Below, in pieces: positions 17,613-22,002 of a DNA stretch of 24,107 bases. A program made the position numbers and the translations under genes. The stretch is taken from positions 1 to 24,107 of IMG/VR virus record IMGVR_UViG_3300005264_000136. One strand, given 5' to 3'. Under the pieces are notes generated by a model that searched no databases, had not been told where the DNA came from, and saw nothing but the letters and a program-made list of their open reading frames with translations. Positions within the stretch are counted from its first letter, which is position 1; each line of letters opens with the position of its first letter. Origin of the DNA: a virus.

Positions 17613-19592
17613 TCACTCCACTACCGGCTGTATGCCGCAAACACATCCGTCATGATACGGCGGATGACTCTTAATACTTGAAACTTTTAGAGGAGCATCA
17701 GCTCCATCAGGCTGAAACTGTCCCGGTTCCAGAAAGTTCTCTTCTATCCCAATGACCTTTCCATCCAGAGCGTCACAATAGGCGCAGCACCCTCCTTTGG
17801 AGACCGATTGAATCTTGGTAACTCCCACAGATCTCCAGACAGTTCTGGCAACAGCACTTTCCACAAGGATTCGTGCCTGAGAGACCTGTTCCGGCCGGAC
17901 TTCCTTCCAACGATCAGTTTGAGCATTCATCTCTTCCACAGTTTCCCGCTTCTTGATTTCCTGCTTGCTTCTGATGGAATAACGGAGACCGAAGGACTCC
18001 ACAAATCGATTGATAAAGGCCTCATATTCAGAATCAGCCATTGCCACACCGACTTCATCTTGAGCAATGGACCGGATCTCATCGGCATTGATCTGCACGA
18101 TACCGGCAGCCATACGGGAAACACTCCCTGCAAACCGCTCATAGAATCTTTCTAGAGCTTCATTCAACTCCTGCAGGTTCTCTCCGGAAGCGGAAATAAT
18201 GTTCCTAACAGCCGGGATCTCTTCCTCCAGGATGTTTCTGGCAAGGGTTTTATATTTCTTGGTAAACCTGTTTGTAATGGTCCGCCGTTTATCAAGTCCT
18301 CTTTGCTGACTGGGCAGTACTCCTCTGGCAGAGTTCTCCTGATTTGCTTCTTCCGGAAGCAGTGCCTGCTTCATATCGATCATATTGAGAGGCACGAAAT
18401 AAGCATCTCCCGAAGGATCATCGATCGGATTCATATTCTCTTTCTGCCGCCATTCATTGGCGCTCATTGCCCCGTTTTGACGGGCAAGCTGGTAAACCTC
18501 ATAACGGGTTTTGGAATCTCCCCGGAGTAGGCCATCCACCAGAAACTCAATGAAGTACTCCTTCTGTTCTTCCCGGGTTAACAAGGTTTTAGTCATGGCC
18601 TGCTCGATGCGGATAAGCCGTGGCAACAGAGAGTCCTGAACATAGTCTATGTTCTGATGCTCGATATTTGAAAAAGTGGACCGGCTCAGATCTTTGATTT
18701 TATGAGGCGGAATATTGAACCATCGGGCAACTTCTGTGACTGAAAATTCACGGCTTCCCAACATCTGAATCTCTTCCGCGTTAAACTGGATCGGCTTGAA
18801 CTCGCCCTCTTCCTCCAGGATGGCAGTTCTATGGTGGTTATGGACACCGCCGCCGTTAAAGGCCTCCCATGATCCCCTCAGCCTGTTAAAAGCCTCATCA
18901 GAAAGAGCTTTTTTCAACTGGATAATACCGGCTGGCTTTGAGCTGTTCTGATAGAAACTTTCTGCCTGTTCCTCTGCGGACTGCATAAGGGTGAAAGACC
19001 GGCGCCGTTTTGCTATGGGGTTGATACCATCAATACCGTTCAGAGTCATGACGGGAATATGGATCATCTGATCCTTTGGTATTTCATAAGCCTGTCCGTC
19101 AACGGTAGTCCGGTAGATTATTTTTCCATTTAATTTGTCCCGGTGAGTGACACCAGGATTCAATGGCCATAGCTCAATAGAACCGTTACCAGGGCGACAC
19201 ACCCATATATAAGTATCTCCCCAGAGTTCCTGATGAATGGCAGAGGCCTGTCTCATCTGAAAGCTGGTCATCAGTTCATTGGGTTCGATAGACAGAACTG
19301 AATACAGAGGATGATCAACCGCCCGGATCTTCCCGCCGCTTCCGGTCCGTTTGTATAGGATAAGCGGCAGCATAGCAATATGGCTTGAAAGCAGATCCAC
19401 TGCATTCCAGACAGCAGATAGATTCAATGCAGAAGTTTCATTCATCAGAGGCCTTCCATCTTTTGAAACCATATTCAGATAAGGGAAATTACCCTCAGAA
19501 ATATTCCGTTTCTGAGGGATCATACTTCCTATCCGGTTCACCATATTCATGGGAAACTGACGGATCTTATTCAAATCAATTGTTATATCCAT
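17613..19592 (-). CDS. Portal protein fused to a MuF-like head morphogenesis domain
   Basis: Residues 1-400 form an HK97-type portal: WNAVDLLSSHIAMLPLILYK near 65-84, IKDLSRSTFSNIEHQNIDYV near 296-315, and RGDSKTRYEVYQLARQNGAM near 358-377. The portal is the dodecameric DNA gate. A long extension to residue 659 is largely helical (430-560) and ends in a MuF-like domain with GGCCAYCDALDGKV near 609-622 and SHPPYHDGCVCGIQP at the end. Its Cys and His residues recall minor head proteins of the SPP1 gp7/Mu gpF type. In most phages these are separate genes. The gene overlaps terL by 10 bp. Confidence 0.88.
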   Translation of the reverse strand: MDITIDLNKIRQFPMNMVNRIGSMIPQKRNISEGNFPYLNMVSKDGRPLMNETSALNLSAVWNAVDLLSSHIAMLPLILYKRTGSGGKIRAVDHPLYSVLSIEPNELMTSFQMRQASAIHQELWGDTYIWVCRPGNGSIELWPLNPGVTHRDKLNGKIIYRTTVDGQAYEIPKDQMIHIPVMTLNGIDGINPIAKRRRSFTLMQSAEEQAESFYQNSSKPAGIIQLKKALSDEAFNRLRGSWEAFNGGGVHNHHRTAILEEEGEFKPIQFNAEEIQMLGSREFSVTEVARWFNIPPHKIKDLSRSTFSNIEHQNIDYVQDSLLPRLIRIEQAMTKTLLTREEQKEYFIEFLVDGLLRGDSKTRYEVYQLARQNGAMSANEWRQKENMNPIDDPSGDAYFVPLNMIDMKQALLPEEANQENSARGVLPSQQRGLDKRRTITNRFTKKYKTLARNILEEEIPAVRNIISASGENLQELNEALERFYERFAGSVSRMAAGIVQINADEIRSIAQDEVGVAMADSEYEAFINRFVESFGLRYSIRSKQEIKKRETVEEMNAQTDRWKEVRPEQVSQARILVESAVARTVWRSVGVTKIQSVSKGGCCAYCDALDGKVIGIEENFLEPGQFQPDGADAPLKVSSIKSHPPYHDGCVCGIQPVVE

Positions 19593-21262
19593 CTCATCCC
19601 CCGGTTTTCATATACTGATTCCTGCTGTTCTCCCTGAAGGAGATAGGCTCTGTAGTAGGCCATTACCATCATGATTACACCATCGATCCTAGAGGAGGTT
19701 TCCTCTCTCTTGGGCTTCACAATTTTCACGTTGTCATTTGAGTCCCGGTAAATTTCAGCGCAGGAGATCATAAAATCCATAACAGGATTGCCGTTATAGG
19801 CGACTTCCTGTGATAGGATTCCCCGTTCAGTATGCTTAACTGCGGGGGATATCTCCTTCATTCCCTGACTGAACCTGACACAATTCATACTTTGGGCTTC
19901 CAGATTGTTAATAATCCCCTGGGCGCCCCAGGGATCGAAGATAAACTCCGAAATGTTAAACTTCTCCGCATCCCGGCAGGCCCAGGCCTCAATCTCGTTA
20001 TAGTCGAGAACATTCCCATAGGTGGCACGGACCAATCCTTTACGAATCCACTCCCGGTAGGGAACATCTTCGCTTCTGGTATCAATGGATTCCTCGGGCA
20101 TAAAAAAACGCCAGAGGAACCGGTAAGGTTCATCCTGCATGACAGGGGGGAAGCACAGGCAGTACCCGGCAAGGTCTGTTGTCGTAGCCAGGTCAAAGGC
20201 CGCCACGCAATCTCTGCCGATAAGCTGTTCTTCATTGAAATCCTGCCGGCATTTTACCCATGTTTCATGATTGATCCACCTGGTATGGGCATCCACCCAG
20301 ATGTTCAGATGCTTTACTTTGAAGTTATTCTCTTTTTCAGGCCGGACAACGGCATCACGAAGAAGGGATTCAAGGAAATCCTGACCAACAGCCACATCCA
20401 GAAGCGGGTTAGACTTCTTCCAGACAGCCGGGTCCTTCCAATCATCCCCCTCATCAAGGGTGTAAATGATTCCAAAGTACTCCTCATCCTCTTCGATTCC
20501 CTGCAAAATCCGTTCAACCCGGTCCCGCTCTCTCTTACAGGCGCAATTCCGGTTAAATCCGGCAGTCGTAATGACCCAGAGGAGAGGCTGCAGACGGCTA
20601 CCCATTCCACCCTTGAGAAGTTCAAGGATCTGATCATTAGGATGGGCGTGGTACTCATCGACCAGCGCACAATGAACGTTCAGACCATCTTTATTTTTGT
20701 TATCCCTGGAAAGGGGTTTGAAAAAACTATTTGTGTTTGTGTGAACAATGGAACCGGTAAATGTTTTCAGCATCTTCCGGAAGTCTGGAGACTGAGCAAT
20801 CATTTCATTTGCCACACCCCACACAATCCGGGCCTGATCCTTATCCACAGCAGCAGAGTAAACTTCTGCTCCGCCTTCTCCGTCCAGAAAAAGCATATAC
20901 AAACCGATGGCCGCCAGGATTGTTGACTTGGCATTCTTCCGGGCTTTCTCTTCGTACACATAGCGGAATCTTCTGTTTCCGGAATCCTTGTGTTTCCAGC
21001 CGAAGACAACTGCCAGGACAAACTGCTGAGCTGGCTCAAGATGAATATTCCGGCCTTTCAACTGTCCTTTGACATGCTTGCAGAAACCTACAAAGTCAAT
21101 GATCCGACCGGCAACCTCTTCATCGAAGTAATAGGGATAGTTTGCTGATTCGGCTTTTACCAGGTCTTCAACATGGCGTTGAACAGAGAGCCGCACCCAT
21201 TTACAGGCGATCTCTTTCCCGGTAATCACATCATCAATGTACTGCTGGTATGTCTTTTCCAA
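19583..21262 (-). CDS. terL: Terminase large subunit (HK97-type packaging ATPase/nuclease)
   Basis: This subunit drives DNA into the prohead and cuts concatemers. The ATPase domain has a Walker-A-like ARKNAKST (residues about 107-114), a Walker B with catalytic acid CALVDEYHAH (about 198-207) and the coupling motif VITTAG. The nuclease domain starts with CVAAFDLATTTDLAGY. I chose a TTG start at 21262 (559 residues), 10 nt after AGGGAG, because the family usually begins just before the YxxDVxxGKxxACKWVRL segment. The ATG at 21334 would be 24 codons longer, but those codons are the hairpin and T-run of an intrinsic terminator, and it lacks a ribosome binding site. Confidence 0.9.
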   Translation of the reverse strand: MEKTYQQYIDDVITGKEIACKWVRLSVQRHVEDLVKAESANYPYYFDEEVAGRIIDFVGFCKHVKGQLKGRNIHLEPAQQFVLAVVFGWKHKDSGNRRFRYVYEEKARKNAKSTILAAIGLYMLFLDGEGGAEVYSAAVDKDQARIVWGVANEMIAQSPDFRKMLKTFTGSIVHTNTNSFFKPLSRDNKNKDGLNVHCALVDEYHAHPNDQILELLKGGMGSRLQPLLWVITTAGFNRNCACKRERDRVERILQGIEEDEEYFGIIYTLDEGDDWKDPAVWKKSNPLLDVAVGQDFLESLLRDAVVRPEKENNFKVKHLNIWVDAHTRWINHETWVKCRQDFNEEQLIGRDCVAAFDLATTTDLAGYCLCFPPVMQDEPYRFLWRFFMPEESIDTRSEDVPYREWIRKGLVRATYGNVLDYNEIEAWACRDAEKFNISEFIFDPWGAQGIINNLEAQSMNCVRFSQGMKEISPAVKHTERGILSQEVAYNGNPVMDFMISCAEIYRDSNDNVKIVKPKREETSSRIDGVIMMVMAYYRAYLLQGEQQESVYENRGMRWI

Positions 21263-21283
21263 ATCTGTACAACTCCCTGAGCC

Positions 21284-21320
21284 AAAAAAAAGACGCATCA
21301 AGCCTAAGGCTTGATGCGTC
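21284..21320 (-). terminator. Strong intrinsic terminator upstream of terL
   Basis: A perfect inverted repeat, GACGCATCAAGCC (21292-21304) and GGCTTGATGCGTC (21308-21320) with a 3-nt loop, is followed on the minus strand by eight T residues (21291-21284). On the plus strand it is followed by only three T residues, so it faces terL. Transcripts from terS would be stopped here unless antiterminated. Confidence 0.85.
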
Positions 21321-21427
21321 TTTGGTCGTTCCATTTAACACATCATCTTCACGATGATAAACTGTAATTGTACGTAACAGGGATCCGGTCTTTCCGCTAT
21401 CGCCCCTGGTACGGAATAATCAAATTA
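21284..21427 (-). ncRNA. Putative small structured RNA between terS and terL
   Basis: A promoter-like sequence at 21434-21463 and an intrinsic terminator at 21284-21320, both on the minus strand, frame a stretch of about 144 nt. It has hairpin 1 (arms 21404-21413 and 21373-21382, ten positions with one mismatch, 21-nt loop containing a smaller CGG/CCG stem) and hairpin 2 (arms 21353-21358 and 21342-21347, 5-nt loop), followed by the terminator hairpin. No plausible protein with a ribosome binding site lies inside. I recognise no known RNA family or riboswitch. It may be an independent small RNA or a structured leader of the terL message with attenuation. Start and end are inferred. Confidence 0.5.
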
Positions 21428-21433
21428 TGCTTT

Positions 21434-21463
21434 ACAATAAACCCAATAAAATTAATTTGTCAA
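21434..21463 (-). promoter_or_regulatory. Sigma-70-like promoter between terS and terL
   Basis: On the minus strand a perfect TTGACA (21463-21458) lies 18 bp before TATTGT (21439-21434), a 4/6 match to TATAAT, in an AT-rich stretch. It lies just inside the end of the region downstream of terS and points towards the hairpins and terL. The perfect -35 is the strong point; the -10 is weak. Confidence 0.5.
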
Positions 21464-21468
21464 GAGAT

Positions 21469-22002
21469 TCATGAACTTTTTACAAGACCAAACATTTTTT
21501 CAAACTCGGATTCATCCTGTTTATCATCTGTTATATCCAACCTCTTCCGGCTCCCTGGAGACAGGCCGAACTCATTCATAAACTTATGATACAGAGCCAT
21601 TGCCTTATTTTTGGCACTCCGGCAGTTATTCACCATTGAGGCATGATGCTTTATCAGGGCAAGCTGAGCCTTCAGCTCATCCGAATTCTCGGCCGACTTG
21701 ATATTCTGTTCTGCGTCCTTCTGATCTTTGAGGTGACTCTTCATATCATAGCTGGATTGAACCATATCATCGTAAGCCATACAGCAGGCTTCCAGGCATC
21801 CCAGGTCAATCTTCTTTAACAGCTCCTCATCCTTAAGCAACCTGACCAGTTTCCGCCACTGTTTCTTCCCGGCTGATCCCATGTGGGAAGGAGTCTCAAT
21901 TTTCTCAGGAAGATCCGTTTCTGCTTTAACTGATCCATGATCCCGATCATCACGGAAGGTGCCTGATAGTATTTTTAAGCCCGGTGCTTTCCTGTAGTTC
22001 AT
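21469..22002 (-). CDS. terS: Terminase small subunit (P27 family-like)
   Basis: This 177-residue protein recognises phage DNA and feeds it to TerL. It resembles P27-family small terminases: an N-terminal KAPGLKILSGTFRDDR segment, a helical core starting GSAGKKQWRKLVRLLKDEEL near residues 42-61, long helices around 75-150 for oligomerisation, and the C-terminal FGLSPGSRKRLDI near 146-158. A GGGGGAGATAGGGA site precedes the ATG. It lies after the HNH gene, the common HNH-TerS-TerL order. Unusually, about 200 bp with promoter and terminator signals separate it from terL. Confidence 0.88.
   Translation of the reverse strand: MNYRKAPGLKILSGTFRDDRDHGSVKAETDLPEKIETPSHMGSAGKKQWRKLVRLLKDEELLKKIDLGCLEACCMAYDDMVQSSYDMKSHLKDQKDAEQNIKSAENSDELKAQLALIKHHASMVNNCRSAKNKAMALYHKFMNEFGLSPGSRKRLDITDDKQDESEFEKMFGLVKSS

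Follow-up and report, generated by a model that had tools for sequence, protein, structure and literature searches.

What occupies the space between the two terminase genes of this phage, and does it act as an RNA? The window (the whole stretch of 24,107 nt that was analysed) is one contig of a 3.29-Mb draft genome, and its minus strand carries a temperate tailed phage of spirochaete bacteria, with the gene order integrase, HNH endonuclease, terS, terL, portal, prohead protease, capsid, head-tail adaptor, tail sheath and onward. The terS gene (21469..22002, minus strand; Pfam Terminase_4, 4.5e-15; PHROG 83 terminase small subunit, 8e-24) lies directly upstream of the element described here and has its stop at 21469, while terL (19583..21262, minus strand; Pfam TerL_ATPase, 4.6e-33, and TerL_nuclease, 5.2e-39) lies directly downstream and encodes, by its Pfam domains, an ordinary two-domain terminase with a TerS partner. 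The most likely start of terL is TTG 21262, judging from the usual start of TerL proteins and from the likely ribosome binding site AGGGAG (21273..21278, minus strand), which reads GGGGAG at the same place in the one relative discussed below. Given this start, the terS–terL gap is 206 nt. In about 80 other TerL relatives, the two genes for the most part overlap or are at most ~45 nt apart (the automatic figures for L094, L101 and L103 are invalid, as these loci were in the other orientation), and the gap of about 200 bp that a first-pass annotation had singled out as unusual is indeed so.

An upstream start for terL was considered as well. ATG 21334 opens a frame that runs through the terminator and is fused to terL; it was rejected as a conserved terL start, since a 4-nt loop insertion in the relative breaks the frame. 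Separately, the 3′ arm of the terminator (21298-21284) contains an in-frame ATG that would give TerL the N-terminal extension MRLFFG and that is GTG in the relative, a U-A to U-G change that preserves both the pair and the start codon.

Inspection of the gap confirmed the elements that the first-pass annotation had listed, all on the minus strand: two promoter-like boxes, two hairpins (the ATCATC/GATGAT hairpin being one) and a perfect 13-bp terminator hairpin followed by eight T. The -35-like box TTGACA (CTTGACAAAT; 21458..21463) is seen directly and is followed, 18 nt away, by the weak -10-like hexamer TATTGT (21434..21439), which together would place a putative transcription start at about 21427. 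Downstream of it lies the P1 hairpin (21373..21413), built of 4 bp, 6 bp, an asymmetric internal loop (CGAYAR/GA) and 3 bp that close a pentaloop AAAGA, so that its tip reads CGG-AAAGA-CCG (21386..21396). The P2 hairpin (ATCATC/GATGAT, ~21359-21341) follows, and the element ends in an intrinsic terminator (21284..21323) with a 16-bp hairpin, 13 bp of which are conserved in the relative, a TTA loop and T8. This terminator stands far above chance (16 bp versus at most 9 bp for the other minus-strand candidates in the same half of the window) and ends ~5 nt short of the ribosome binding site of terL. Within the operon no other strong minus-strand terminator was found; the next credible candidate, at 511-495, lies where the operon ends. 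The overall fold of the element has z = -4.9, which is due to the terminator; with the terminator removed, z = -0.4, so the case for the upstream hairpins rests on covariation and not on folding energy.

The promoter-like boxes were assessed in the same manner. TTGACA-18-TATTGT is the top-scoring minus-strand promoter-like site between 12000 and 24107 (10/12), with its -10 weak here and, as TAAGGT, in the relative. Counted by itself, TTGACA shows no excess over chance (12 in the window against 13.3 expected). In the relative, the box stands at the same 18-nt spacing and is preceded by unrelated sequence; homology between the two phages sets in exactly at CTTGACAAAT, which in each of them directly follows the stop codon of the gene upstream. 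The cassette thus has its edge at the box, even though TTGACA itself is frequent by chance.

The evolutionary comparison rests on two sequences, both from draft genomes, that of the relative being a metagenome bin. The one true relative found among whole genomes of the same class is a second Spirochaetales prophage of the same genus (G004 contig 192, locus L107), whose TerL is 80% identical. There, the element again stands directly before terL and is flanked by terS and terL, with a 75-aa DUF2188 gene between terS and the element, and the terS–terL junction thus appears to accept insertions. The DUF2188 gene (L107:9093-9382) has a promoter-like TTGACT-17-TATTTT of its own and is probably a moron.

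Fourfold-degenerate codon sites are 30-44% identical between the two phages, which is near saturation, while 96/130 positions of the whole element are identical. Identity varies by part: linker 1 appears unconstrained (4/16), P1 keeps 28/41 positions, the terminator with its T tract 36/39, and constraint is highest in 21344-21313 (30/32). All of the 30 tested pairs form in both phages, with five double and three one-sided changes, whereas control structures slid by 1-3 columns pair at just 22-45%. P1 contributes 13/13 kept pairs, four of them changed on both sides and two through G-U, and its predicted fold is identical in the two phages; under a simple random-substitution model with ten changes in paired positions, all 13 P1 pairs were kept in ~3/100,000 trials. 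The terminator likewise keeps 13/13 pairs, with one double change and one G-U change. P2 can form in both phages with a different loop and register and displays no covariation. Read on the minus strand, each of the three one-sided changes either creates or removes a G·U pair, which argues for an RNA over DNA repeats and for the minus strand as the one transcribed. On this comparative evidence, an RNA-level structure of the minus strand is under selection; the conservation and covariation of the stems by which the candidate RNA was to be judged, in relatives that share flanking terS and terL, are borne out in this relative.

The most constrained stretch coincides with a candidate antiterminator hairpin (21313..21344, minus strand), which can be written GAUGUGUU-AAA-UGG-AACGA-CCA-AA-GACGCAUC. 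Its 3′ arm, GACGCAUC, is also the 5′ arm of the terminator, and the two hairpins are therefore mutually exclusive. The 32-nt consensus of the two phages, GAUGUGUUAAAUGGAAMGACCAAMGACGCAUC, is predicted to form 8 bp, an internal loop and the tip UGG-AAMGA-CCA, at -9.8 kcal/mol in both. This second apical motif (UGG-AACGA-CCA, 21323..21333, minus strand; UGG-AAAGA-CCA in the relative) nearly repeats the tip of P1, which reads AGG-AAAGA-CCU in the relative. Each phage thus has two copies of the tip NGG-AAMGA-CCN, separated by 61-63 nt, and the four copies use three different outer pairs between them. The antiterminator hairpin was spotted post hoc, and its lower stem is invariant between the phages and so cannot itself show covariation. 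When its 24-nt 5′ part was shuffled, -9.8 kcal/mol was reached in 0/3000 and 11/3000 cases; with P2 competing, the pairing gain is ordinary among shuffles (p 0.10-0.37). P2 takes up GAUG, the start of the antiterminator 5′ arm, in both phages and in different registers, from which we infer that P2 would serve as an anti-antiterminator. The candidate antiterminator is ~14-16 kcal/mol weaker than the terminator, and a factor would therefore be needed to hold it.

How these parts could act together is constrained by the layout of the operon. A minus-strand promoter scan found no promoter-like site between the terminator and terL, and with no other strong terminator in the operon, terL mRNA must pass this terminator, which makes it a conditional one whatever its other roles. 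We give about even weight to the reading that the element serves as a structured RNA leader which carries an intrinsic terminator and works in cis as a conditional stop (attenuator) before terL and the structural operon. The default state would be P2 together with the far more stable terminator, and transcripts arriving from the local promoter or from terS would stop as a ~144-nt RNA. A factor bound to the twin NGG-AAMGA-CCN tips of P1 and the antiterminator would hold the antiterminator in place, so that the terminator could not form and polymerase would continue into terL, portal and capsid. Such a factor could be a late protein of the phage or a protein of the host; alternatively, polymerase itself might fill the role, as it does with the put RNA. 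That this amounts to a new class of phage RNA switch, in which a phage or host factor reads the twin tips and holds the antiterminator directly before terL, gating entry into the packaging and structural operon, is a more tentative proposal, and one that we hold to be rather doubtful at present.

The main competitor of the leader reading is a trans-acting small RNA cassette, a 'moron' RNA with its own promoter, a length of ~144 nt, a terminator and a seed, GUGUUAAAUGGAAMGACCAA, that would pair with host or phage messages. Such an RNA would account for the -35 box at the homology edge, for the terminator with T8, for the typical sRNA size and for the independence of the element from its upstream neighbour; the near-invariant linker can also be single-stranded, and its conservation fits a base-pairing seed as well. 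Against it, the 'seed' doubles as one side of a hairpin that overlaps the terminator, both phages have a weak -10, and the element stands directly before terL in both. Moreover, two weak tests, one on orthologous phage genes and one for near-perfect complements in the two genomes, found no antisense target shared by the two phages. We put the likelihood of the small RNA well short of even. Two possibilities had been left side by side at the outset, an independent ~144-nt RNA and an attenuating terL leader; the structured minus-strand RNA common to both stands, and the evidence leans to the leader because the alternative hairpin overlaps the terminator and because the element stayed by terL as its upstream neighbour changed. 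Alternatively, the element might be a plain insulator, whose strong terminator would silence terL and the structural genes in the lysogen and yield in lytic growth to a processive antiterminator of a general type, Q- or N-like, with a minor part for the upstream hairpins. A strong terminator at an operon junction is what such an insulator calls for, and Tn916 offers a precedent (PMC11658703), but the covariation of P1 and the 30/32 identity of the antiterminator core would be left unexplained, and we consider it improbable.

Two further readings draw mainly on location. Packaging sites are often found among terminase genes, and a DNA-level site (cos/pac or a repressor operator) might appear as inverted repeats at such a place. 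DNA palindromes, however, would not selectively tolerate changes that are all minus-strand G-U wobbles, and the T8 tract is strand-specific, which makes a DNA site very unlikely. Even less credible is the packaging role that had been suggested at first, a pRNA-like part of the packaging motor: only the position beside terL speaks for it, whereas TerL is an ordinary terminase with a TerS partner, Rfam offers no match, and model searches near TerL relatives at ~46% identity or less found no such RNA. This suggestion of the first-pass annotation is thus unsupported.

If the leader reading is correct, a conserved conditional stop between the terminase subunits would allow TerS to be produced when TerL and the structural proteins are not, and packaging would come under a checkpoint at the RNA level. 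The usual picture of phage late operons is one of control from a single distant promoter, and RNA regulation in spirochaete phages has, to our knowledge, been little studied.

Searches for further copies returned the two known ones. No Rfam 15 family matched above its gathering cut-off (the best weak match having E 0.1), BLASTN against phage records gave short, low-value matches only, and three DNA patterns run against viral contigs gave chance matches for two, on inspection, and none for the third. A covariance-model match in another genome (G049; E 2.8e-5, model with the terminator) was rejected, as it was driven by an unrelated terminator. A model stripped of the terminator, run over 395 members of the class with 10 candidates per genome scored, recovered the two known copies and one marginal match (E 0.047) of the kind expected by chance. 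In a different phage, IMGVR_UViG_3300044712_002001 (L062:3815-3985), ~170 nt before a distant TerL (33% identity) has z -5.1 and two long hairpins; it is not recognisably related and is perhaps another RNA at a terS–terL junction. Two viral contigs (L029:2990-3240 and L031:3800-4010) carry a GC-rich hairpin and a small ORF before terL.

Among known systems, the mechanism that we favour would, by analogy, resemble twin-hairpin (ANTAR) or RAT antitermination. ANTAR dual-hairpin antiterminators, the targets of EutV, NasR and AmiR (Ramesh et al. 2012, PMC3369931), likewise comprise two hairpins with matching tips on 3-bp stems, agree with the element in loop positions 1 (A) and 4 (G), the eut motif being AANGRR and the loop here AAMGA, and use the terminator base in the second hairpin, as GACGCAUC does here as the terminator 5′ arm. 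They differ in their hexaloops, where the element has pentaloops whose 5-nt size is set by covariation of the stem pairs, in the ~62 nt and the further hairpin that separate the tips here, and in their nitrogen and ethanolamine genes, as opposed to a phage packaging operon. An ANTAR-domain protein (PF03861) is encoded once in the window's genome (8.8e-20; G000:C49:4195-4350) and was found in only 3/61 genomes examined; none was found in the relative's genome (G004, 95% complete), leaving an ANTAR protein unsupported as the trans factor. For this reason, and for its loops of 5 and not 6 nt, the element does not qualify as a member of the ANTAR class. In RAT systems, the targets of BglG/SacY-type antiterminators, an alternative hairpin with internal loops overlaps the terminator 5′ arm, as it does here, the second matching hairpin upstream being the difference. 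A search for a CAT_RBD RNA-binding domain (PF03123), which matched its E. coli and B. subtilis controls, found none in either host genome (G000 and G004), leaving a BglG-type factor unsupported as well.

Further parallels come from mobile elements. The put RNA of HK022 (PMC9378689) also forms phage leader stem-loops just downstream of a promoter and ahead of terminators; it is ~70 nt long, acts on early operons and need not overlap a terminator, and its sequence and fold were compared with those of the element via Rfam only. The prophage sRNAs DicF and the EHEC anti-sRNAs (PMC5069750, PMC4104026) are, like the element, small phage-encoded RNAs, whereas the element has no Rfam match, no target found and a fixed position before terL. 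Finally, in Tn916 the T1 terminator, which overlaps the first gene, is read through by processive antitermination (PMC11658703). Like the phage terminator, it stands where a mobile-element operon is entered and has to be antiterminated; what distinguishes the phage element is that an overlapping hairpin and the covarying P1 adjoin its terminator.
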